Shown: in pieces, positions 8,515-53,337 of the stretch
Position numbering within the stretch: the first letter of the stretch is position 1
How the letters are laid out: each line of letters opens with the position of its first letter
IMG/VR virus record: IMGVR_UViG_3300025122_006404
Location: 1-64,000 of that record
DNA length: 64,000 nucleotides
Strand: one strand, 5' to 3'
DNA from: a virus
Position numbers and translations under genes: made by a program
Notes under the pieces: generated by a model
Told to the model about the DNA's origin: nothing
The model's input: the letters and a program-made list of their open reading frames with translations, nothing else
The model's database searches: none

Positions 8515-9219
8515 ATGTCAACTATTACAAATAAAGAATTAAAAGAAAATATCAAAGATTCCCTCGGGCTAGGCGTGAGTGACTCATCTCCCACTTTAAA
8601 TGAAGCTTATGTCATTCAGGAAAAATCTTTCAAGCTTCCTACTGAAATGCTTAGTTCAAAAAATAAAAGAAACCACATAGAGATCTACGATCAAAATGTC
8701 AAGGATTTTAATAGAATAAGTGCTGAGCTGGATGTCGCTGATAGATCTGCTGCATCTTCTGATCACTCGGAATATCGGTCTCTTAAACTTGATGAGACCT
8801 ATAATCTAAATGGATCCTATCTTCATGAACTTTATTTTGCTAACATTAGTGATCTTCACAGCGAAATTTCAATGGATTCTCTGACGTTTATGAGACTTGA
8901 AAGAGATTTTGGGACATTTGATGATTGGCAGCAGGATTTTATTGCATGTACACTATCTTCACGCTGCGGATGGGCCATAACTGGATTTAATCTTTATCTG
9001 CAGAGATATGTGAACTGCATGGTGGATTTACACAGTTTAAACGTTCCCGTCGGCATATATCCTGTAATTGTAATGGATGCGTGGCAGCATGCCTATTATA
9101 GGGATTATCTTAAGGATGTTAAGACCTATACATATGCAATGATGAAAGAGCTAAACTGGGAAGTAATTGAAAATAGATTTAAAAAGGCAGAAAGATTGGC
9201 CAAGGCTTTGAGAGATTAA
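8515..9219 (+). CDS. Fe/Mn superoxide dismutase-like protein
   Basis: 234 residues. All four metal ligands of Fe/Mn SOD can be placed: His54 (NHIEIY), His104 (LHELYF, like NHxxFF), Asp188 and His192 (DAWQHAYY, matching DxWEHAYY). FGTFDDW, CGWAI and NWEVIENRF also match family landmarks. It may remove superoxide, or the fold may be structural. About 40 extra N-terminal residues start with KELKENIKDSLG, the amphipathic segment shared by several other proteins here. It directly precedes the acidic 9221 gene. Confidence 0.82.
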   Translation: MSTITNKELKENIKDSLGLGVSDSSPTLNEAYVIQEKSFKLPTEMLSSKNKRNHIEIYDQNVKDFNRISAELDVADRSAASSDHSEYRSLKLDETYNLNGSYLHELYFANISDLHSEISMDSLTFMRLERDFGTFDDWQQDFIACTLSSRCGWAITGFNLYLQRYVNCMVDLHSLNVPVGIYPVIVMDAWQHAYYRDYLKDVKTYTYAMMKELNWEVIENRFKKAERLAKALRD

Positions 9220-34322: not shown

Positions 34323-35201
34323 ATGAGGATGTCTAAACTATTTAAAATATGGGGAATGTCCTTCCTGTTTTTCGGGGGGTGTTCCCCTGACTATTCAATC
34401 AATGACCAGCAAGAAACTAGAGTCGTTGTCGACTCCTTTGTTCAAGCCGAAGAGATAGAAGATCTCGATGTACTGGTGGTAGTGGATACTTCTGGTTCAA
34501 TGCTAGATGATGCAGATGAGGTGGGATCGGGTCTTGAGATATTTAGGTCTGATATTGAGGGGTTGACCTCCACCTATAGAATCGCTTTTATAACAACAGA
34601 CGCCGATCGATTGGGATACACAGGATACTATGACACCTCGTCATCATCAATTGATTTAATGCTAGCACCGGGTCTTCTACCCTCTGTCTCTGGAGAAGCA
34701 GGTTTCGAATCTACTTATGTTTTTATTTCCAGCGACGAGGGAATAGAGTTTAAAAGAGACGAAGCGGATTTTCTTTTATTTTTAATATCAGATGAAGATG
34801 AACAAAGCAGTATTTCTTCTGCTATATTTAAAGACTGGTTACAGAATGAGTTTTCCGAAGTCAACCATGACGTGGTTTCCATCACCTCCCTCGAAGATAG
34901 TGAGTGCTCCTGGGAGATAGGATTTAAATATATTGAATTATCTGCTCTTTACAATAAGGATGCTATTGATATATGTGCTGAAGGCTGGGAAGTTTGGTTA
35001 GCAGAAAGCTCTTTTCTCACTCAGATGATTAGAGAAATTCAACTTACTGAAATCCCTATTTTAGAATCAGTGGTGGTCTATGTGGATCAGCAGATTACTT
35101 ATGCATGGACGTACAGCGAGCCTAGTAATTCAATATATTTAGACGTGATTCCTGACTATGGATCGGTGGTTGAAGCAGGTTACAAGGTTTATATGGATTA
35201 A
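34323..35201 (+). CDS. VWA-domain lipoprotein
   Basis: 292 residues. Signal peptide with lipobox FFGGC (Cys20), then a von Willebrand A domain with MIDAS VVDTSGSM (Asp55). A C-terminal beta segment (VVVYVDQQITYAWTYS) resembles the end of the VWA protein at 38968 (IIVSVDGLLSADWTYD), so they are paralogues. It is probably anchored in the host envelope and binds a ligand through a metal ion. It opens the exported-protein island and looks host-acquired. Confidence 0.85.
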   Translation: MRMSKLFKIWGMSFLFFGGCSPDYSINDQQETRVVVDSFVQAEEIEDLDVLVVVDTSGSMLDDADEVGSGLEIFRSDIEGLTSTYRIAFITTDADRLGYTGYYDTSSSSIDLMLAPGLLPSVSGEAGFESTYVFISSDEGIEFKRDEADFLLFLISDEDEQSSISSAIFKDWLQNEFSEVNHDVVSITSLEDSECSWEIGFKYIELSALYNKDAIDICAEGWEVWLAESSFLTQMIREIQLTEIPILESVVVYVDQQITYAWTYSEPSNSIYLDVIPDYGSVVEAGYKVYMD

Positions 35202-35251
35202 ATGTCGATATAAGCCTATTTTTAAAATAATTAGATATAGAGGGGTGATTT

Positions 35252-35470
35252 GTGAAACCAGGCGATTTAGTAACTTTAAAAGAAAACATTGAGCGCTTAG
35301 ATAAAAGTGAAATTTTATTAAATAATGACCTGGGTATAGTAATAAATTCCAGTGATCGCAGGTGTAAAGTATTAATAAGGGGCACAGTTTGGGGATTTAA
35401 AAGTGATATGCTTTTAAAGCTAGATGAATATGACAAAGGTCAAGCACATGCCCAAGATGAGCCCAACTAA
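35252..35470 (+). CDS. GDLV-family small protein, 72 aa
   Basis: GTG start after GAGGGGTGATT. KPGDLVTLKENIE, then LGIVINS, then VWGFKSDMLLKL: the standard three-part order of this family. Its 3' end overlaps the convergent 35420 gene by about 50 bases. Confidence 0.65.
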   Translation: MKPGDLVTLKENIERLDKSEILLNNDLGIVINSSDRRCKVLIRGTVWGFKSDMLLKLDEYDKGQAHAQDEPN

Positions 35471-35656
35471 TAATGACAACATTAAAGCAATTCCATGCTG
35501 CCGGGATTGCTTAGTAAGGTGGCTTTTTTCAATTCTAAGCATCTCATAGTCAGAATATAATCTTTCTTGAGCTATCTTAACTTGTTCTTCAAGATGTTCT
35601 AGCTCTTTTTCTTTCATTTGTATTAATCGAGGGTGAGAGATAAGATTGTCGTCCAC
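35420..35656 (-). CDS. Coiled-coil membrane protein, 78 aa
   Basis: A coiled coil (about residues 12-50) and one C-terminal membrane helix (IALMLSLLVGLILGMC). Function unknown. It starts eight bases beyond the stop of the thioredoxin-like gene in the same direction. Confidence 0.6.
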   Translation of the reverse strand: MDDNLISHPRLIQMKEKELEHLEEQVKIAQERLYSDYEMLRIEKSHLTKQSRQHGIALMLSLLVGLILGMCLTFVIFI

Positions 35657-35664
35657 TTTAATTC

Positions 35665-36327
35665 CTATAGAAGAGACTCTATTTCTTCAACAATAACACT
35701 TTCATTCCAGCCGGGAAGATAAAATTCTGTGATCATATCTCGATTAATAATAAAAAATGTCGGCCAACTACTTACCTGCCACCCAGACTCCCCGTCCGGA
35801 TCAATTAGAGATCTATTTCCAATTAAAACGGGGGATGAAGTCATTCCGTACTGAGAAGACCAAGAGTAGATATCTGATATACCTGGTTCGGAGCCAGTTT
35901 GATCGTCTATGAGGATGGTTATGTATACAAAATTTTGATCCTCATACGTGTCTTGTATAATTTGAGAATTAGGTGCTATCATTTTACATACAGGGCACCA
36001 CATCGTTGAAAAGTCTAAAACAATTACCTTTCCCATATGATCGTAAAGAGAAAATTCATTTCCATTTTGATCAATGAGATTAAACTCGCAGGGATGATCT
36101 TGGAGATCATAGGAGCAATTGGACCACGTGACTAGAGGGTTTTCTCCTGAAGAATCTGGAGTCCCGCTATCCAAAAACTTGTGAGGATAAATTTCTATAT
36201 TTAAATCTCTCCCACTGGGAGAAATTTCAGTCTTAACGGGTTCATCATCTCTTTCCGTAGATGTGTCATTAGAATGTAATAGACACGAGCAGAGAAAAAA
36301 GAACAAAGTGGTAAATCCAATATTCAT
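35665..36327 (-). CDS. TlpA-like thioredoxin-fold lipoprotein, paralogue 1
   Basis: 220 residues. Signal peptide with Cys13/Cys15 (FLCSC) as possible lipobox, a disordered acidic linker, then a redoxin domain: DFSTMWCPVCK with the active CxxC, and the cis-Pro motif SSWPTFFII. HPCEFNLIDQNGNEFSLYD before it is shared with the two paralogues at 37596 and 38209. Periplasmic thiol-disulfide exchange or cytochrome maturation is typical for the family; the role in phage infection is unknown. Confidence 0.85.
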   Translation of the reverse strand: MNIGFTTLFFFLCSCLLHSNDTSTERDDEPVKTEISPSGRDLNIEIYPHKFLDSGTPDSSGENPLVTWSNCSYDLQDHPCEFNLIDQNGNEFSLYDHMGKVIVLDFSTMWCPVCKMIAPNSQIIQDTYEDQNFVYITILIDDQTGSEPGISDIYSWSSQYGMTSSPVLIGNRSLIDPDGESGWQVSSWPTFFIINRDMITEFYLPGWNESVIVEEIESLL

Positions 36328-36379
36328 TTTTATAAAAGTTATTAATTTTATCTTATCAATTTCCTATAATTAATATAGG

Positions 36380-37156
36380 ATGCTTAAATTTAAAAATAAA
36401 TTTCTACTTAGGCTGTCGGTTATAGGGTTTTTATTTTGTATCTGCTGCTATAGTTTTAGCTCTTACTCACCCCAATCGGAATCCAGAGAACTTTCTACTG
36501 CTACGATGGGACCCGAGCTCATTAAAAGCTCAAATGATATTCCCAGGTCTCTTAGGAGATCTTTGCGTTTATCTGTGGTTAAAGTCAAGTCCGTTCTTAT
36601 TCCTACAGGTCCTGATACAGATCTTCTCTATCGATATGGAAGCGGATCTTACATGATTTTTGAAGATAGGCACTTTGTTATCACAGCTGCTCATGTTCTT
36701 CGCGATGCGGGAGTTGTCATCGTAGCAGGTTTTTCTGAAGAGGTCCTCGCAACTCCCGTTTATATCGATTTTGAATCAGATGTGGCTGTGCTATTGATTC
36801 CCCGAATGGATTCTCGGTCTCCAGTAGCATTTAATCCCATTAAATTTCCCAGAAGTCGAAATATTGCAGGAGAAAATATCGTATATGCAGGATATCCTAA
36901 TTCTCATGATGAACCCTTAGTTTTATCTGGTATTATCGCAGGATATGAGAATGATAGATTAATTCTTCAATCGTATGCGTGGATGGGATCTTCAGGGTCA
37001 TGTATATTTGATCATCGAGGAAGAATCGTTGGAATTGTGTCCGGCATAGAGATAGGATCATCTAACCATTTTCCTCCTCAGCTAATTGAAAGCATGATTT
37101 GGGCATCTCCGGCGTGGAATTTAAGTAAATCTCGAATGAGAGAAATTCTAAATTGA
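36380..37156 (+). CDS. Trypsin-like serine protease with N-terminal membrane anchor/signal
   Basis: 258 residues. Hydrophobic N-terminus with three cysteines (FCICC). The catalytic triad is visible: His105 (TAAHVL), Asp134 (FESDVAVL), Ser205 (WMGSSGS). No PDZ domain, so it is not a full DegP. Probably exported and active in the periplasm. It is divergent from the thioredoxin-like gene. Confidence 0.85.
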   Translation: MLKFKNKFLLRLSVIGFLFCICCYSFSSYSPQSESRELSTATMGPELIKSSNDIPRSLRRSLRLSVVKVKSVLIPTGPDTDLLYRYGSGSYMIFEDRHFVITAAHVLRDAGVVIVAGFSEEVLATPVYIDFESDVAVLLIPRMDSRSPVAFNPIKFPRSRNIAGENIVYAGYPNSHDEPLVLSGIIAGYENDRLILQSYAWMGSSGSCIFDHRGRIVGIVSGIEIGSSNHFPPQLIESMIWASPAWNLSKSRMREILN

Positions 37157-37161
37157 TTTGA

Positions 37162-37189
37162 TGTAAATTGTATTTCTCTATGATATAAT
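37162..37189 (+). promoter_or_regulatory. TGTAAA-class phage promoter (deaminase gene)
   Basis: TGTAAAT (37162-37168), 15 bases, TATAAT (37184-37189). The -10 overlaps an ATG at 37188, so that ATG cannot lie in the transcript and the GTG at 37218 is the likelier start. Confidence 0.72.
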
Positions 37190-37217
37190 GTTACATATAT
37201 CGGAGAAGAAATGTCTA

Positions 37218-37583
37218 GTGTATTACCTGGCTCGTGAAAGAGCCTTAAATAACGGTAGAGTTTATCATATTGCAGCAATTTTGCGAAGAGGAAAGCATAT
37301 TGTTAAAATTGGAGTAAACTCAAGCAAAACTCATCCTCAATTTGGAAGAGTGTATCCTGATGGATCATGCGCTTATCACATGCATGCTGAAATGGACGCG
37401 CTACGTTTTGCCCAGCCCGGAGATACTCTAGAAGTTATGAGATTTCGTAAGTCAGATAATGAATATGCTATTGCGAAGCCTTGTGAGTTTTGCATGAAAC
37501 ATATTATAGAAGCTGGAATTAAAAAGGTTAAATATACTAACGATCTAGGTGAATGGGAAACAATGAGAGTTTTTCCCGCGTAG
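37218..37583 (+). CDS. Cytidine/deoxycytidylate deaminase-fold protein
   Basis: About 121 residues from GTG 37218 (131 if ATG 37188 were used; see the promoter entry). HAEMDA and KPCEFCMKHI are the zinc-binding motifs of the deaminase superfamily. It is distinct from the dCMP deaminase at 7772. Substrate unknown: free nucleotide, RNA or another amine. Confidence 0.78.
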   Translation: MYYLARERALNNGRVYHIAAILRRGKHIVKIGVNSSKTHPQFGRVYPDGSCAYHMHAEMDALRFAQPGDTLEVMRFRKSDNEYAIAKPCEFCMKHIIEAGIKKVKYTNDLGEWETMRVFPA

Positions 37584-37595
37584 GAATAGTTTTTT

Positions 37596-38183
37596 TTACT
37601 GATTCAGAGTTTCTTGAATCAGTGTGTCAATCCAGGTGGAGCTAAATCCTTGTAATCTAGTGTGTAGTACCATCTCATCAGTAATAAAAAAGAAAGTCGG
37701 CCATGCTGTTAATGGCCATCCATTTGTTCCGCTTACATCAATTAAATCACGTGAGCCAGCGAGGACTGGAGAGGTAATCCCATAGGTGTCACACCAATAG
37801 GTGATATCTGCTGCAGTGGGAGGGTCTCCCGTAGAATTTTCAATTAATACAGTGATATAGGTAATTTCTTCTGCATATTGATCTTGGACTTGCTGGACTT
37901 CTGCAGCTGCACTGTTGCAAGGTCCACACCACATCGTAGAGAGATCGAGAACAATAACACCACCATAATAATCATAAAGAGAAATATCCATCAACAGCTG
38001 ATTGCTTAGGGTAAAATTACAGGGATGATCTCCAGTATTTTGTGAGCAGGATTCCCACGACGCCCAGGGATAAGGATCAGCTACGGGAGTATTGCTGGTA
38101 TCGCCAGATGTCAGACTAGGCTTGCATCCCCCGAGTCCCATTATCATTAGTAGTCCCCAGTTTATCAAATTATTTTTTAACAT
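37596..38183 (-). CDS. TlpA-like thioredoxin-fold lipoprotein, paralogue 2
   Basis: 195 residues. Lipobox GLGGC (Cys20), a short Thr/Asp linker, DLSTMWCGPCN with CxxC, and TAWPTFFFI with the cis-Pro. HPCNFTLSNQ...SLYD repeats the paralogue signature. A 9-bp inverted repeat lies at its 3' end (37598-37623), but without a T-run in the right place. Confidence 0.86.
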   Translation of the reverse strand: MLKNNLINWGLLMIMGLGGCKPSLTSGDTSNTPVADPYPWASWESCSQNTGDHPCNFTLSNQLLMDISLYDYYGGVIVLDLSTMWCGPCNSAAAEVQQVQDQYAEEITYITVLIENSTGDPPTAADITYWCDTYGITSPVLAGSRDLIDVSGTNGWPLTAWPTFFFITDEMVLHTRLQGFSSTWIDTLIQETLNQ

Positions 38184-38208
38184 CTTAATTTCTAGTGCTC
38201 CTTATTTC

Positions 38209-38964
38209 TTACCGAACTATCCCAAATACATCATCAACCCAGCCGAAAACTATTTCCTCATTCCACCCAAGTAGACCGTTATGGACGGTTAGAGTCTCAT
38301 CTACCACCACAATTGTTGGCCACGCAGAAATTGGATAACCATCTTCGGCAGTAAGATCGATAATGCTTCTATCTCCAGCCAAGACAGGGGAAGTGGTCAT
38401 GCCATACCTAGAAACCCAATCCTGAATTTCTGATGGCGTCGGCGGCGTTCCCCACGATGGTCCATCTACTAATACCGTTACCCATAAGAAATCGTAGCCT
38501 AAAGCTGTGTAGGTATCTTGATGAATCTGAGCGTCTCCGGCGATACTGTTGCAGACTCCGCACCAGATTGTAGAAAAATCGACAACCATAACAGTGCCAT
38601 AGTTGTCATAGAGTGACCAATCATTTCCATTTTGATCTTGGAATGTAAAGTCGCAAGCTTTTTCCCCGGGTTTTCCGCTACATTCAGTCCACGTAATGGG
38701 AGATGGATCTGTGTCCTCGACTGCAGAGTCACTATCACTGTCGGAAGTATCCGTGTTCGTGATATGAGTATCTTTAATGACAGAATCATCATCGACGACG
38801 GAATCATCATCGACTGTGTCTTCTTCTATGACTGTGTCGTTCGAAGTTTTATCATTTATGCCTGTTGAAGTCTCCCCAGGCGTCGCGCAGCTTATGAGAT
38901 TAGCTGTTGTGAAATTGGCCCACGCAAGTGCGGCCAAAAATATAAGTGATTTGTGTTTTAACAT
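38209..38964 (-). CDS. TlpA-like thioredoxin-fold lipoprotein, paralogue 3, with long Asp/Thr linker
   Basis: 251 residues. Signal peptide ending LISC (Cys26), then about 60 residues of Asp/Ser/Thr/Val-rich low-complexity linker, typical of Myxococcota-type lipoproteins. The redoxin domain follows: DFSTIWCGVCN and SAWPTIVVV. It is tandem with paralogue 2 and the VWA/ASH gene, probably one minus-strand operon. Confidence 0.86.
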   Translation of the reverse strand: MLKHKSLIFLAALAWANFTTANLISCATPGETSTGINDKTSNDTVIEEDTVDDDSVVDDDSVIKDTHITNTDTSDSDSDSAVEDTDPSPITWTECSGKPGEKACDFTFQDQNGNDWSLYDNYGTVMVVDFSTIWCGVCNSIAGDAQIHQDTYTALGYDFLWVTVLVDGPSWGTPPTPSEIQDWVSRYGMTTSPVLAGDRSIIDLTAEDGYPISAWPTIVVVDETLTVHNGLLGWNEEIVFGWVDDVFGIVR

Positions 38965-38967
38965 GTT

Positions 38968-40581
38968 TTATTCTCCAGTGTCACAGTCCGCCCAAGCTGC
39001 ATATTGTATATCAATTGAACTTTCATCTGCAGGCGCTACAGTAAATGAAACAGAATTGGCTGCGGTGTCATATGTCCAATCTGCTGAAAGTAAACCATCA
39101 ACACTCACTATGATAGTGTCTTCAATGGGATAATCTGATAAAGGAAAAGAGAGCATCGACATTGAGTCTCTAGCTAATGTGTCCATAGTGACACTCCAAT
39201 CTGCAGCGCAGATTGACATAAACGTTCCGCCCAGATCAGCCACGACGTCATAATATCCATCGCCGAACTGGGCGCTGCCATTTGACGTGCATCCAGAAGG
39301 ATAATCACCAGCGACCGCATGTGCCACAACAAGCTCGTGAGAGCTTTTCAATGATTGAAGGTGCGTAGAATAATCAGAAGGAGTCATTCCAGCTGATCCT
39401 CCTCCGTAGGCTGAAGTATTGGTAGAGGCATCAGGTTCGTCGGAAACATATACCACCACTAAGCGAGCCGATGCTCTAAAAAATCCCGTTGCTGATCCCG
39501 GAGCTGCATCTCCACCAGTAGCTGTGGATTCATATGAATACCACAATCCTTTTTCAATTGGTGCTCCGTGGTATCCAATCGCATCGACCTGGTTGCTAAA
39601 TTCTGCTACTGGATCAGGAGTAGCGGGAGTGATTATGTTTCCTACAAAACTGGCATCATCTGTGGTTATTAGAGCTACTTGATAATCTACTCCAGCACCT
39701 ACAAAGACGGACATAAAATCTCCGAAATTATTTTTTAGATTAGTCTGATTAGAAGACATAGACCCAGAGTTATCAACAACAAAAAGAATGTCTACTATTG
39801 CTTCTCCATCTTGTGTAAAATTATCTATCACCCAATACTCATAAGCTCCTAGTGCGCTGTGATCTGACATAACAACGGGGTTAAGCGGATCGCTAGATAC
39901 TATTTCAACATATGCATCGTCTGATAATAAGTCTAGCGGGGTGTAGTAAATTGTAAGGCTTAAAGAATCACTGGGGGCAATAATCCACGGTAACGGTCCA
40001 TTTTCAATTTCGTATTGAATCATTGAAAAGTCAACAGGGACTGTAACATAATATCTGATGTCATTTATTTCCAAATTAGCATTGCCAATATTTGAGATAG
40101 TAATATCAAATGAGTCATCACATCCAAGATAAACTGTTCCTAAGTCATGCGCGGCAGGATCTACTTCAATCACAGGAGCGTCACCTTTTCCAGATAGATT
40201 GACTGTAACAATTTCCTCGTCTGGATCGTCTGATAAAATTGAAATCGAATTTATATTTGATTCGTAGGTAATTGGGTCATAGGAAACTATAAGATCTGTA
40301 GATTTTCCCGGCTCTATTTCATTTGAAATTATATTTGTTATGGAATAAACTGACGTTGATAGATTAAATTTGATTGCATTAATATTGAGAACTTCATTCC
40401 CTGCGTTTGAGATCGTAATTGTTTCAAGAGATAGTTCGTATCCTGCATTTAATGATCCGAAATCAACTGTAGTTGGATTTACATCTATGTCAGGCTCACG
40501 GTCTACTTTTGGATGAAGTGCATAATCTGAGCAACTAAATAGAGAAAGAAGAATAACAAGTGACTGAATTAAACGAAACAT
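38968..40581 (-). CDS. Lipoprotein with two ASH-type domains and a VWA domain
   Basis: About 537 residues from the ATG at 40581; a longer start at 40608 would add nine residues before the signal peptide. Lipobox LFSC (Cys17). Two ASH/SPD-2-Hydin-like immunoglobulin-type repeats follow (VNPTTVDFGSLNAGYEL; VDPAAHDLGTVYLGCD). Next comes a VWA domain with MIDAS FVVDNSGSMS, and a C-terminal beta segment matching the 34323 protein. An adhesin-like or envelope scaffold protein, host-derived in character. Confidence 0.86.
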   Translation of the reverse strand: MFRLIQSLVILLSLFSCSDYALHPKVDREPDIDVNPTTVDFGSLNAGYELSLETITISNAGNEVLNINAIKFNLSTSVYSITNIISNEIEPGKSTDLIVSYDPITYESNINSISILSDDPDEEIVTVNLSGKGDAPVIEVDPAAHDLGTVYLGCDDSFDITISNIGNANLEINDIRYYVTVPVDFSMIQYEIENGPLPWIIAPSDSLSLTIYYTPLDLLSDDAYVEIVSSDPLNPVVMSDHSALGAYEYWVIDNFTQDGEAIVDILFVVDNSGSMSSNQTNLKNNFGDFMSVFVGAGVDYQVALITTDDASFVGNIITPATPDPVAEFSNQVDAIGYHGAPIEKGLWYSYESTATGGDAAPGSATGFFRASARLVVVYVSDEPDASTNTSAYGGGSAGMTPSDYSTHLQSLKSSHELVVAHAVAGDYPSGCTSNGSAQFGDGYYDVVADLGGTFMSICAADWSVTMDTLARDSMSMLSFPLSDYPIEDTIIVSVDGLLSADWTYDTAANSVSFTVAPADESSIDIQYAAWADCDTGE

Positions 40582-40621
40582 GTCATTAATATATATGTGC
40601 TCATGCAAGGTATGCCGATCA

Positions 40622-40649
40622 TGTAAATCCTTTTCTTTTGAGATATAAT
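40622..40649 (+). promoter_or_regulatory. TGTAAA-class phage promoter (tilS)
   Basis: TGTAAAT (40622-40628), 15 bases, TATAAT (40644-40649), preceded by TTGAGA. It lies between the divergent VWA/ASH gene and tilS. Confidence 0.72.
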
Positions 40650-40678
40650 AAGGATAGAAACTATCGGGATGGTTTAAA

Positions 40679-41284
40679 GTGATTCATCTGTTTGGAAAGA
40701 TTCCTACAAAGGTTCATGTAGCGTGCTCAGGAGGCCCGGACTCCATGGCTGTTCTTGATTTTCTTTTAAATGGTCGAAAGTCTATTACTGTAGTGCATTT
40801 TGATCATGGAACAGAGCATGCAAATGTGGCGAGACAATTTATTACTGACTATTGCAGGTTCAAAAAAATTCCCATCGTAGTGAAAGAAATTCAGAGATCA
40901 AAAAGTAAAGAGGAATCTCCCGAGGAATATTGGAGAAATGAGAGATATCGATTTTTTAGAGGGATAAGCTCTCCTATTGTTACCGGTCATAATTTAGATG
41001 ACGCTGTAGAGTGGTGGATAATGACTGCGATGCACGGACAGCCACGACTGATTCCCTACCGGCATGGAAATGTCATTAGGCCTTTTTTGCTTGCTGAAAA
41101 GTCAGAATTGCTTGAGTGGGTGGAAAGAAAAAATATTCCCTATGTGCTAGATCCTTCTAATAAGTCAGATAAATTTTCTCGCTCTATTGTAAGAGAACAT
41201 ATAATGCCACATGCACTTAAGGTAAATCCTGGAATTAGGAAAGTGGTCAAACGTCTTTTAAAAGAGAGCACTACTTCATTTTGA
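40679..41284 (+). CDS. tilS: TilS-like tRNA(Ile) lysidine synthetase, N-terminal catalytic domain only
   Basis: 201 residues. ACSGGPDSMAVL (residues 15-26) is the PP-loop, HFDHGTEH and TGHNLDDAVE match TilS active-site segments, and DPSNKSDKFSRSIVREHIMP matches the conserved (E)DxSN...RNxIR motif. The C-terminal tRNA-binding domains of E. coli TilS (about 430 aa) are absent, as in short TilS proteins. TilS changes C34 of tRNA-Ile(CAU) to lysidine. A phage tRNA with a CAU anticodon lies 2.7 kb downstream. Confidence 0.82.
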   Translation: MIHLFGKIPTKVHVACSGGPDSMAVLDFLLNGRKSITVVHFDHGTEHANVARQFITDYCRFKKIPIVVKEIQRSKSKEESPEEYWRNERYRFFRGISSPIVTGHNLDDAVEWWIMTAMHGQPRLIPYRHGNVIRPFLLAEKSELLEWVERKNIPYVLDPSNKSDKFSRSIVREHIMPHALKVNPGIRKVVKRLLKESTTSF

Positions 41285-41312
41285 TGTAGCTTTCAAAAAA
41301 AAATGGTATAAT
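41285..41312 (+). promoter_or_regulatory. TGTAAA-class phage promoter (HExxH lipoprotein)
   Basis: TGTAGCT (41285-41291), 15 bases, TATAAT (41307-41312), preceded by ATGG. It starts at the tilS stop. Confidence 0.68.
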
Positions 41313-41328
41313 AATAAAAGGAGATAAA

Positions 41329-42036
41329 ATGATATATTCTATAGCTATAGCAAGTTTGTTGATGGGATGCCAGGATAAATCCCATTCCCTATTAGTTTTC
41401 GAAACCGCTGACAGGCTAAATACTTCTCATGGCGTGGCTGGCAGTATTGGTTCAAAGGATAGAGAAGAGACTGTTGCCATAGAGCCAACTGAGTTTTGGG
41501 TCAGTAGTGACAACAGCAGAGAAGATACCATGTTTGTTGCTACTCACTTTATACGATCATCTAGGATGATTTTCTCTGAAATGATCGCCGTAATCGACGA
41601 TTCCGACCGAATCGACGTCGATGACCAGGGACCCATCTTTTGGCAGAAGATCTTTGATTCAGAGCTTTCTTGTCTTGCGGATTCCCAGCTTAGGATTTTT
41701 GATATCTCTGAACAAAAGATCAATGATCCTGAGGTTATGACATTTTATACGCCCGAGGTAATCCCACCTCCTCCAGCTACTATTTCAGGGATGACAGCCC
41801 CCATAAGTGATTGGGATTTTTACCTGTTTGTGTGTCGAGATTGTGGGGATGAGAGAGAAGAGACTATTGCTCATGAAGTGTCACATTACTGGTTTAATGT
41901 ATGTGATCATAATCTTCCATATGACGTCGAATCATTTGCCAATAAAATTGAAAAGGCCTACGTTGAATCAATCGGCAAGGAATATAAAAGCGTCAGGCCA
42001 GATCTAAACGCTGTGATTCCTATTCACAGGTTCTGA
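41329..42036 (+). CDS. Lipoprotein with HExxH metalloprotease-like motif
   Basis: 235 residues; AAAGGAGATAAA precedes the ATG. Lipobox LLMGC (Cys14). HEVSHYWFNVC near residue 186 gives HExxH, with VESFANKIE downstream as a possible third-ligand region. Family unknown. It may be an envelope peptidase, or the site may be non-catalytic. Its 3' end overlaps the convergent metzincin gene by 13 bases. Confidence 0.7.
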   Translation: MIYSIAIASLLMGCQDKSHSLLVFETADRLNTSHGVAGSIGSKDREETVAIEPTEFWVSSDNSREDTMFVATHFIRSSRMIFSEMIAVIDDSDRIDVDDQGPIFWQKIFDSELSCLADSQLRIFDISEQKINDPEVMTFYTPEVIPPPPATISGMTAPISDWDFYLFVCRDCGDEREETIAHEVSHYWFNVCDHNLPYDVESFANKIEKAYVESIGKEYKSVRPDLNAVIPIHRF

Positions 42037-42575
42037 ACCAGGCCTTCGTCGTTCCAGCCCCCATTTTCAAGAATAGGGTGCATTAGATGTCCACGACGGT
42101 TTATGTGCAGCCACCCCAGTGCATGACCGATTTCGTGTTCTAGAATTCTTTCCCTGAGATTTTCTTTAAGCTCAATCCTCACCCGCACAATCTCGCCTGT
42201 TTCGCGATCAAATCTTATAAATGTGGTGGCGTGATTCGAAGGATTAAAATTCTCTTGACTAATTAAAGAGATCACAATAGATCCGTACGCGGAGCCAACA
42301 ATACATCCGTTACCGTGGCCAGCTTCAACAATATTACCAAAGGTGTATCCTCTGGTTTTCCACCATTCAACTGCTGCTGCCACTTCTGCACGTGCAGCAG
42401 GAGATCCTTCGCAAATTTGAATGTCAGGAGGAAATTTCCAGCTTCCTAGCTTTTCTATCTCCCCGCCTCTAAGTCGAACATCGACATATGGATCCTCAAT
42501 TAGAACAGGAGTTGATCCAGATAAAACGGGGGATAGAATAATTAAAAATAACAAGCGTTTAAAAAAGTTCGTCAT
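42024..42575 (-). CDS. Exported metzincin-type zinc metalloprotease
   Basis: 183 residues from the ATG at 42575; the frame is open further upstream, but a signal peptide begins here (FFKRLLFLIILSPVLS). HEIGHALGWLHINRRGHLMHP has the HExxHxxGxxH zinc site followed by a His/Met region like the Met-turn. Matrixin-like and small. Probably periplasmic or secreted. Confidence 0.83.
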   Translation of the reverse strand: MTNFFKRLLFLIILSPVLSGSTPVLIEDPYVDVRLRGGEIEKLGSWKFPPDIQICEGSPAARAEVAAAVEWWKTRGYTFGNIVEAGHGNGCIVGSAYGSIVISLISQENFNPSNHATTFIRFDRETGEIVRVRIELKENLRERILEHEIGHALGWLHINRRGHLMHPILENGGWNDEGLVQNL

Positions 42576-42642
42576 ATAATAAACTATTTCATTGCAGGCT
42601 TTTAAGCATGTACAGTCTTGTGGGAGAAGAGTAGAATTAAAC

Positions 42643-42885
42643 ATGAAAAGTAAAAATTCATCTAAAATTGCACTTAAAATGCTTAAAAAAGAGGTTGATA
42701 AAATAACTACGGGAGTTTTTAAGATAGAGCAGACTTCGGATGACGGGGGTCCCCTCTTTGAGGTGAGGACTGATAAGAGAAAATCCAAGAGAATGAGGCA
42801 GAAGCTCCCCTTGGTTTACATGGGCAGCCGGATTGTAGTGACACAAGTAGCAAGAGAGACGCTAATTCACAGTGCTAGTAGATAG
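42643..42885 (+). CDS. Small basic protein, 80 aa
   Basis: Not recognised. Start set at ATG 42643; an upstream TTG in frame lacks support. Lys-rich, with a helical N-terminus and a beta-rich end. It overlaps the next gene by 14 bases. Confidence 0.5.
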   Translation: MKSKNSSKIALKMLKKEVDKITTGVFKIEQTSDDGGPLFEVRTDKRKSKRMRQKLPLVYMGSRIVVTQVARETLIHSASR

Positions 42886-43951: not shown

Positions 43952-44028
43952 CGGCTTCTAGCTCAATCGGTCAGAGCAACGGTCTCATAAACCGTAGGTT
44001 CTGGGTTCAAGTCCCAGGGAGCCGACCA
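43952..44028 (+). tRNA. tRNA with CAU anticodon (elongator Met, or Ile2 if lysidine-modified)
   Basis: Acceptor CGGCTTC/GGAGCCG with a C1-G72 pair, discriminator A and encoded CCA. Anticodon stem ACGGT/ACCGT, loop CTCATAA. It lacks the C1-A72 mismatch and three G-C pairs of an initiator, so it is an elongator or Ile2. C4-G69 is shared with E. coli tRNA-Ile2. TilS is encoded nearby. Confidence 0.93.
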
Positions 44029-47837: not shown

Positions 47838-49370
47838 ATGCTATCTTGCTATAGTGAAATATTGTCGCCAGACGCTTCGTATTTTTTAGAAGCTCTTTTT
47901 TCGTGTTTTCAAGACGATCTTAAATCTCTGCTAGAAGCCAGACAAGAAAGGCAGAAAGAATATGATCTTGGTAAGCTTCCAGATTTTCTTGAAGAGACTG
48001 CCAGCATTAGAGATGATAGTGTTTGGAAAGTCTCTGAAATCCCTCACGAGCTCTTAAATAGAAGAGTAGAAATAACTGGTCCAACTGATAGAAAAATGGT
48101 GATAAATGCTCTTAATTCGGGAGCAAATGTTTTTATGGCAGATTTTGAAGATTCTCTTTCTCCTACTTGGAAAAACATCATAGAAGGTCAAAAAAATCTT
48201 AAAGATGCTGTTAACAGAACAATAGCATATGATCATCCTACTAAAGGAACCTATACACTAGACGATCAAACGTCTGTGTTGTTCGTTCGCCCTCGAGGCT
48301 TACACTTAAAAGAGAAAAATTTTGAAATTAATGATAGTTCGATTTCTGCTTCGCTTTTTGATTTTGGAATATTCATGTATCATAATGCAAATGAATTAGT
48401 GCAGCAGGGAACAGCTCCGTATTTTTATTTACCAAAGATTGAACACTACTTAGAAGCTAGATGGTGGAATAATGTTTTTAACTGGGCACAGGACTATCTA
48501 TCTATTCCAAGAGGTACGATTAGAGCAACAGTCTTAATCGAAACTTTGCCTGCAGCTTTTCAAATGGATGAAATTCTGTATGAGTTAAAAGACCATTCCG
48601 CCGGATTGAACTGCGGCAGGTGGGACTATATTTTTAGTTTTATTAAAACTATTAGAAATCATCCTGATAAAATTTTGCCTAACAGATCACAGGTTACGAT
48701 GATGTCTCATTGTATGAAGTCCTATAGAGATCTTCTCATACACACGTGTCACAAAAGAGGAATCCATGCCATGGGAGGGATGGCAGCACAAATACCAATT
48801 AGAGACAATCCAGAAGAAAATGAAAAAGCTTTACAAGCTGTGAGAGAAGACAAGATCAGAGAAGTGCTTGCAGGCCATGATGGAACATGGGTAGCTCATC
48901 CAGGATTGATTCAGGTCGCCAAAGAAGTGTTTGATGAAATGATGCCTCATTCTAATCAGATTGAATTTTTAACACCCAAAGTAAAAATTCAGAGCTCGGA
49001 CTTGCTAAAGACTCCTCAAGGAGAAATCACAGAAGAAGGTCTTCGAAATAACATTAATATCGGGATCAGATATGTTGAATCGTGGCTTCGGGGAAATGGA
49101 TGTGTTCCGCTTTATAATCTAATGGAAGATGCTGCCACAGCCGAAATTTCTAGAACTCAAGTGTGGCAGTGGATAAGACATGGTAAATTTACAGAGAAGG
49201 AATTTAAAAAAATATTAAGTGATGAGGTAAATAATATTAGAGTTCAAGTGGGAAATGTTGAGTTTATCAATGGGAGATTTGCTGAAGCAGTATCTCTATT
49301 TGAAAAGTTATCAGTAGGTGAAGAGTTAGAGAATTTCTTAACTCTAGCAGCATATAAAAACATTGCATAG
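47838..49370 (+). CDS. aceB: Malate synthase (AceB/MSA type)
   Basis: 510 residues, full length for the A type (E. coli AceB is about 530). [27 protein letters not shown] (about residues 150-158), [25 protein letters not shown] and [13 protein letters not shown] with the catalytic Asp (about residue 430) are all intact. It condenses glyoxylate and acetyl-CoA to malate. Eight bases separate it from isocitrate lyase, as in bacterial aceBA operons. No frameshift or loss of key residues. Confidence 0.96.
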
Positions 49371-49378
49371 GATTTAAA

Positions 49379-50623
49379 ATGATTAATGATAAAAGTGAAA
49401 GATGGAAAGGAACGAAAAGGGAGTGGACCCAAAGCGATGTGGATCGACTAAGGGGTAGTTTAAAAATAGAGTATTCTCTAGCACGACATGGTGCAGAAAA
49501 ATTGTGGAATTTATTACATAGTGACGATCCAGTGGCTGCACTGGGTGCATTAACTGGCAATCAAGCTGTTCAGCAAGCAAGAGCCGGCTTAAAAGCTGTT
49601 TACTTGTCTGGTTGGCAAGTTGCTGCCGATGCTAATCTTTCGGGACACATGTATCCAGATCAAAGTCTATATCCGGCCAATAGTGTTCCTCATGTTGTAA
49701 AGAGAATAAATCAAGCTCTTCAAAGAGCTGACCAAGTTGAGAGTGTGGAAGGAAAGATTACTCGAGACTGGATGATTCCTATCGTGGCAGATGCAGAAGC
49801 TGGATTTGGGGGTCCTTTGAACGCTTATGAGCTAATGAAAGGAATGATTGAGTCCGGTGCAGCCGGAGTTCACCTTGAAGATCAGCTCTCTTCAGAGAAA
49901 AAATGTGGCCATCTTGGAGGAAAAGTCTTAATTCCAACACAGCAATTTATAGTTACTCTTAAAGCTGCCAGGCTTGCTGCTGATGTCATGGGAGTACCTA
50001 CAATTTTAATTGCTCGGACAGATGCTAACAGCGCTAAGATGATGACTTCTGATATAGATCCCTATGACCATCCATTTATGACTGGAGAACGGACTCCAGA
50101 AGGATTCTATAGGATTACAGGAGGCATAGAATGTGCCATAGCTAGAGGATTAGCGTATGCACCCTATGCAGATCTATTGTGGTGTGAAACATCAACTCCT
50201 GATCTCGATGAAGCTCAAAGATTTGCTGATGCTATTCACGAGAAACATCCGGGAAAGCTACTTGCGTATAATTGTTCTCCGTCATTTAACTGGAGAAAGA
50301 ATCTAGATGATGACACAATTGGCAAATTTCGACACGAACTAAACCGGATGGGGTATAAGTTTCAATTTGTTACGCTAGCAGGCTTTCATTCTCTCAACTA
50401 CAGCATGTTTGATCTAGCTAGTGAATATGAGAAAAAAGGAATGACAGCTTACGTGTCTCTTCAACAGAGAGAATTCGGCGCCGAGGACAGAGGATATACA
50501 GCTACCCGTCACCAGAGAGAGGTGGGAACCGGGTACTTTGATAGCGTGAGTGGAGTGCTAAGTAAAGGGAAATCTTCTACTCTCGCACTCAGTGAGTCTA
50601 CAGAGAGCGATCAATTTGAATAA
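49379..50623 (+). CDS. aceA: Isocitrate lyase (AceA)
   Basis: 414 residues, slightly shorter than E. coli AceA (434). [16 protein letters not shown], the signature KKCGHLGGK with the catalytic Cys (about residue 177), RTDANSA, and YNCSPSFNW are all present. It splits isocitrate into succinate and glyoxylate. With aceB it forms a complete glyoxylate shunt bypassing both decarboxylations of the TCA cycle. The C-terminus is Ser/Glu-rich. Confidence 0.96.
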
Positions 50624-53001: not shown

Positions 53002-53337
53002 ATGATGTATTGGCTTTTAGTATTTTTGAGCGCCTGTTCTCTCAAGCTAAATATTGCAGGTAAGAATTTTATCGCTAGTGAGAGTCTCTGCATTGACGGA
53101 GCGATGGTAAATATCGATGCAGCGGGATGTGAGTCTCTTTACTTTGGTGTTATTCCTCGAGATAACACCGTAAAAATTCGGTGCACATATTCTCCTAAAG
53201 AGAATTACTGGACGCAGTCCAGTTTTTATGCCACACCAAAAGATGCACAGACTTTAAATTTTTGGACCCTGATCTGTATTGATCCTCTCGTAAATCTATA
53301 TGCGGTCTCACCGCCTATTAGATTAAAAAATGAGTAG
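53002..53337 (+). CDS. Lipoprotein, 111 aa
   Basis: Short signal with lipobox FLSAC (Cys12). The mature part is beta-rich with five further cysteines. Unrecognised. Envelope location is inferred from the lipobox. Confidence 0.62.
   Translation: MMYWLLVFLSACSLKLNIAGKNFIASESLCIDGAMVNIDAAGCESLYFGVIPRDNTVKIRCTYSPKENYWTQSSFYATPKDAQTLNFWTLICIDPLVNLYAVSPPIRLKNE

Follow-up and report, generated by a model that had tools for sequence, protein, structure and literature searches.

Exported VWA lipoproteins with thioredoxin and protease partners in large, partly T4-like phages: a candidate module for remodelling the infected cell's surface

Llp of T5, described as a small protein that jams FhuA, is among the phage lipoproteins known to exclude superinfection (PMC9586334). 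The locus analysed here resembles that system in that lipoproteins encoded by a phage would be located in the outer membrane of the host while it is infected, a placement that their lipoboxes suggest, and departs from it in design: Llp is a small single-domain protein, whereas the lipoproteins here are multi-domain VWA proteins of 292 and 546 aa with a MIDAS, accompanied by thioredoxin and protease partners. Among bacterial proteins, the Myxococcota-type ASH/VWA lipoproteins (VGRE01000003, JAUXTN010000218 and others) have the same lipobox-ASH-ASH-VWA-C-terminal layout and reach up to 497 bits against the phage profile, but they are stand-alone genes that, unlike those of the phages, have no module partners within 5 kb. 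The TlpA/ResA/Etrx oxidoreductases share the thioredoxin fold, membrane anchor, CxxC and WPT (cis-Pro) motif with the phage thioredoxins, which differ by an extra conserved upstream cysteine pair, by phage-specific subfamilies and by their three copies in the phage considered here. HtrA/DegP/DegS have the same exported trypsin-like domain with an H/D/S triad as the phage protease, which is without PDZ. No VWA lipoproteins of phages were found in the open-access literature, and a search of 50,697 isolated-phage records returned no match for the longer VWA protein or the protease and one weak match, at 26% identity, for the thioredoxins.

The locus and its exported proteins

The window, as we call the whole 64,000-nt stretch of DNA that was analysed, is part of an 87,671-base IMG/VR virus record and contains phage-like genes for a DnaE-type polymerase, a helicase, an ATP-dependent ligase, a sigma factor and GroEL. 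An initial annotation had described an island of host-like exported proteins in it, and all the exported or lipidated genes named there were recovered at 34323-42788 from open reading frames, motifs and Pfam, the end that it gave, 42575, being the likely start of the metzincin. The genes of the island are as follows:

34323-35201, plus strand: short VWA lipoprotein, 292 aa, with lipobox FFGGC, MIDAS DTSGS and a C-terminal beta domain
35665-36327, minus strand: TlpA/ResA-like thioredoxin lipoprotein, WCPVC
36380-37156, plus strand: exported trypsin-like (HtrA-type, no PDZ) protease, 258 aa, Trypsin_2 with intact H/D/S triad
37188-37583: dCMP/cytidine deaminase, without export signal and outside the exported set
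37596-38183, minus strand: TlpA/ResA-like thioredoxin lipoprotein, WCGPC, of the subfamily that adjoins VWA-ASH in relatives
38209-38964, minus strand: TlpA/ResA-like thioredoxin lipoprotein, WCGVC, with a long acidic linker
38968-40608, minus strand: ASH-ASH-VWA lipoprotein (VWA-ASH), 546 aa, with MIDAS and four invariant cysteines; likely start at the ATG at 40581
40679-41284: TilS-like PP-loop protein (PP-loop, 113 bits), without export signal and outside the exported set
41329-42036, plus strand: lipoprotein with an HEVSH (HExxH) motif, whose membership in the module is unproven
42024-42788, minus strand: exported metzincin, HEIGHALGWLH, likely start 42575

Export signals were sought with a simple consensus scan for lipoboxes with a background control, as distinct from a trained predictor, which recognised 37 of 44 VWA-ASH proteins, 15 of 17 short VWA proteins and 12 of 13 thioredoxins, against 13 of 951 other open reading frames in the same virus loci; several of the misses are truncated or distant family members. 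Residue +2 of the detected lipoboxes is never Asp and mostly Ser or Gln, and because Asp is missing there the lipoproteins are predicted to lie mainly in the outer membrane, on the assumption that the +2 rule, which is that of E. coli, carries over to this host. Further along the window, the initial annotation spoke of five more lipoproteins and listed four positions (51546/51549, 53002, 57491 and 60371), all four of which have a lipobox. The gene at 53002-53337 encodes a small lipoprotein, and similar 'SLCxDAxxxN' proteins occur in the loci L008, L009, L021 and L034.

In the VWA-ASH protein, PF22544 (ASH/HYDIN Ig-like) is recognised in two stretches with 66.4 bits against a cut-off of 25.5; the Pfam VWA score is below cut-off, and the VWA assignment comes from the DxSxS motif together with the structure model, the only one built for a protein of the module. 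This AlphaFold2 model, which is confident (mean pLDDT 89.7, pTM 0.53), predicts Ig-like ASH domains and an integrin/ITIH-like VWA domain. Foldseek relates the ASH part to HYDIN and CEP192 and the VWA part to integrin beta and ITIH1, with an RTX adhesin among the matches, at TM-scores that are low overall because the domains match one at a time. Across an alignment of 36 sequences (33 viral and three bacterial), the lipobox cysteine, the MIDAS residues D269, S271 and S273, T305/T306 and D380 are invariant, as are the cysteines C153, C430, C457 and C532. The short VWA protein has no Pfam hit on its own; it matches its larger counterpart at E 3.9e-9 and keeps the DxSxS motif.

All three thioredoxins are recognised by Pfam as AhpC-TSA/thioredoxin, and their CxxC motifs are intact (CPVC, CGPC and CGVC in the order of the list). 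W134-C135-C138 and W215-P216-T217 (cis-Pro) are invariant in the aligned sequences, ResA is among the best PDB sequence matches, and CxxC, cis-Pro and membrane anchor place these lipoproteins with the TlpA/ResA type. The three copies fall at different viral positions in the tree and are therefore old paralogues. The protease, whose triad H105, D134 and S205 is invariant in the aligned sequences, has DegP/DegQ/DegS as its best PDB matches, and its 258 aa give Trypsin_2 and no C-terminal PDZ domain in Pfam. In the metzincin, the HExxHxxGxxH motif is followed by the Met-turn HLMHP; its Matrixin score of 24.5 bits is barely above the cut-off of 24, and a homologue in L003 has D as the third ligand. 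The HExxH lipoprotein could be assigned convincingly to no family, and none of the virus loci compared encodes a homologue of it. Mutated active sites, which the initial annotation had named as grounds for abandoning its proposal, were found nowhere in the set. Signal peptides with a lipobox and intact active sites together support its picture of an exported, envelope-directed and plausibly active set of proteins.

Other genes of the phage and its relatives deserve mention in their own right. The TilS-like protein has homologues in L008, L012 and L014, and a phage tRNA with a CAU anticodon at 43952-44028 is a candidate tRNA-Ile2 substrate for it. An Fe/Mn superoxide dismutase C-terminal domain (PF02777, 57 bits) is encoded at 8515-9219, with homologues in L010 and L011. 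At 47838-50623, malate synthase (PF01274, 370 bits) adjoins isocitrate lyase (PF00463, 350 bits), making up the glyoxylate shunt. An aceBA operon has been reported in the T4-like marine virus TARA_ERS478052_N000008, a large phage genome that has isocitrate lyase, malate synthase and some T4-like structural genes, as here; the two are possibly related, likened by description, and the passage that describes the marine virus mentions no VWA module (PMC5332604). In L006 and L007 (record positions 64001-87671), at least 10 otherwise unlike proteins start with a 'MKITRRQLRRIIREE'-type tag, and in L003 several start with 'MKLLLENWRKFLNE'; by analogy with T4, such shared N-terminal tags may possibly target internal, injected head proteins to the capsid. 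The promoter-type motif TATAAATA is mildly enriched in the window (10 found against 4.9 expected), and no late-promoter signal of this type was seen upstream of capsid genes in relatives.

Distribution, exchange and kinship

VWA-ASH relatives occur in 49 IMG/VR contigs of 7-317 kb and relatives of the short VWA protein in 14 viral contigs. The protease accompanies VWA-ASH in 30 and the thioredoxin in 15 of the 38 VWA-ASH records longer than 40 kb, figures that become 13 and 10 of 15 for records above 100 kb. Gp23, the T4-type capsid protein, is encoded in 13 of the 49 VWA-ASH records, including 10 of the 15 above 100 kb; the 87.7 kb record that contains the window, probably a fragment, lacks it. 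When neighbours within 8 kb were clustered at 42 loci, the protease was found at 31, the metzincin at 11 and the thioredoxin at 10, and all six contigs of at least 97 kb that share the window's polymerase carry a member of the VWA family. The order protease, short VWA, VWA-ASH, thioredoxin with overlapping frames is seen in L011 and L018, and the thioredoxin directly follows VWA-ASH, in frames that overlap or nearly touch, in L009/L016, L011, L013, L018, L019, L021 and L029. The layout of the window, on both strands and with three thioredoxins, differs from this compact operon of its relatives. Judged by gene content, the island is one version of a conserved exported-protein module of large, partly T4-like phages. 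Not every part of it seems to be needed, because the HExxH protein has no relatives, the thioredoxin is missing from part of the records and the protease is likewise missing from some.

A break in composition, the other objection that the initial annotation had foreseen, is present in slight form: the island's GC of 39.8% lies at the upper end of the range, against a mean of 38.4% for the window, and no other 8.5 kb of the window deviates as much in tetranucleotides, though the margin is small. Recurrence of these genes in many independent phage contigs nevertheless shows that the island is phage DNA. An artefact of assembly or binning was rejected for the same reason, several of these contigs having a capsid gene.

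In pairs with measurable dS, dN/dS of VWA-ASH is 0.05-0.11, and protease and thioredoxin pairs of like closeness give 0.06-0.16; the overall range of 0.05-0.16 holds for such close pairs and excepts the more divergent protease and metzincin pairs. By this measure the module genes are under purifying selection, and together with the intact motifs it rejects the possibility that they are pseudogenes. The module does not follow the polymerase. The nearest polymerase (L033/L184) is 83% identical to that of the window while its VWA-ASH is only 42% identical, whereas L008/L197, with 70% for the polymerase, has 64% for VWA-ASH. As read from these comparisons, the module is reassorted between phage lineages, and its repeated replacement would fit this disagreement, the differing layout of the window and the slightly atypical composition. 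Incongruence of this kind is what a surface trait would show under changing pressure.

A bacterial scan with the whole VWA-ASH alignment was empty because the peptides used were phage-specific, and a scan with the VWA core gave more than 400 bacterial relatives. The 79 bacterial loci that were kept are nearly all titled Myxococcota, Deltaproteobacteria, Bdellovibrionota or unplaced proteobacteria. Full-length VWA-ASH relatives, with 434-497 bits to the phage profile, are found in four MAG genomes (G001-G004), of which two are implausibly labelled Klebsiella. The tree places 36 viral sequences in one clade (SH-aLRT 88); beside it, the four bacterial sequences group with the viral sequence L048 (96), and more divergent viral sequences lie outside. 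Within 5 kb of the VWA-ASH genes of the four closest bacterial relatives the other module families were not found, nor was the metzincin found in nine genomes by a search that was run without a positive control. The label 'host-like' thus stands in part: distant relatives are a speciality of Myxococcota, delta-type bacteria and Bdellovibrionota, yet the phage proteins form a deep and diverse family of their own, travel together and are nearer to those of other phages than to any bacterium found. Recent capture from a host by this phage was rejected, phage homologues being closer than any bacterial one and most of them lying in one clade. With four bacterial sequences nested next to the main phage clade, genes were probably exchanged with hosts at some stage. 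The host probably comes from the Myxococcota/delta/Bdellovibrionota group of phyla, as judged from gene kinship only.

Several of the loci compared have peculiarities. L074 and L077 (CAMAWH01 and CAMBIK01) belong to MAGs labelled Klebsiella pneumoniae, have 65% GC and carry Myxococcota-type gene families as in delta MAGs, and the label is probably wrong. L075 (PBNR01000076.1), a 15 kb contig of 37% GC from a Gammaproteobacteria MAG, resembles a phage contig with VWA-ASH and a deaminase-like gene. In L167-L170 and L173-L175, the matching stretch of the bacterial thioredoxin-lipoprotein relatives contains a TGA codon in frame, which in L169 follows 'FW', and selenocysteine thioredoxins are possible.

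Possible functions of the module

Envelope remodelling is the best reading of the module, within which exclusion of rivals and adhesion are not separable by sequence. We propose tentatively, with confidence somewhat short of even, that the exported module remodels the surface of the infected cell and that the most likely gain is the exclusion of competing phages. Through the metal at their MIDAS, the two VWA lipoproteins would engage a partner at the surface or in the periplasm; the thioredoxin lipoproteins would ensure correct pairing of the four cysteines that are invariant in VWA-ASH, and the exported HtrA-type protease, with the metzincin where present, would trim or remove envelope proteins. 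Binders, redox/folding helper and trimming enzyme would together alter the cell's surface, and receptors would be masked or removed, with the exclusion of competing phages as the outcome. Such exclusion fits the precedent of T5 Llp and the pattern of exchange, although VWA-ASH, at 546 aa, is unlike small exclusion lipoproteins of the Llp kind.

HtrA-like proteases and thioredoxins are envelope quality-control proteins in bacteria, and the same phage encodes GroEL, a DnaJ-like protein, superoxide dismutase and the glyoxylate shunt, all of which would suit auxiliary genes of a slow or halted infection that maintain and protect the envelope of a long-lived infected cell by stress proteolysis and disulfide repair. 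This role is nonetheless unlikely: VWA-ASH, the member of the module found most widely, is a binder and no quality-control enzyme, and the protease is without HtrA's PDZ domain. Adhesion, by which displayed VWA lipoproteins would glue the infected cell to other cells, particles or prey and so let progeny meet new hosts, seems rather unlikely, as by itself it leaves the protease and the thioredoxins unexplained. It draws on the combination of MIDAS VWA domains with Ig-like repeats, typical of adhesive proteins, on the integrin beta, ITIH1 and RTX adhesin matches of Foldseek, and on the VWA relatives, commonest in Myxococcota and Bdellovibrionota, phyla with predatory and social members.

Exported proteases and outer-membrane lipoproteins (o-spanins) join in envelope disruption in other phages, and the module could by that token weaken the outer membrane or its tethers late in infection; we regard this as quite improbable, the module proteins being neither small nor spanin-like, no lysin or holin being recognised in the island, and purifying selection on a MIDAS binding site being unexpected for a disruptor. 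That the proteins end in, or process, the phage particle is very improbable, for while some phage proteins in BFVD have VWA and Ig-like domains, the Sec signal peptide and lipobox that nearly every member has would take them out of the cytoplasm, the site of head and tail assembly, and the module genes of the window adjoin no recognised structural gene.

Returning to envelope remodelling, the module may represent an undescribed system, a suggestion that we make with more doubt than conviction: a mobile cassette of two MIDAS-VWA lipoproteins, thioredoxin lipoproteins and an HtrA-type protease, widespread in a group of large phages, that would build and service a protein layer on the outer membrane of the infected host and decide how it interacts with other phages or cells. 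Most known cases of envelope proteins made by phages involve one small gene, whereas here a multi-gene exported set comes with its own redox and protease helpers. The kinship of its genes indicates Myxococcota/Bdellovibrionota-like hosts for phages otherwise without an assigned host, and the module supplies concrete genes on which a possible remodelling of the Gram-negative surface by large phages can be tested.
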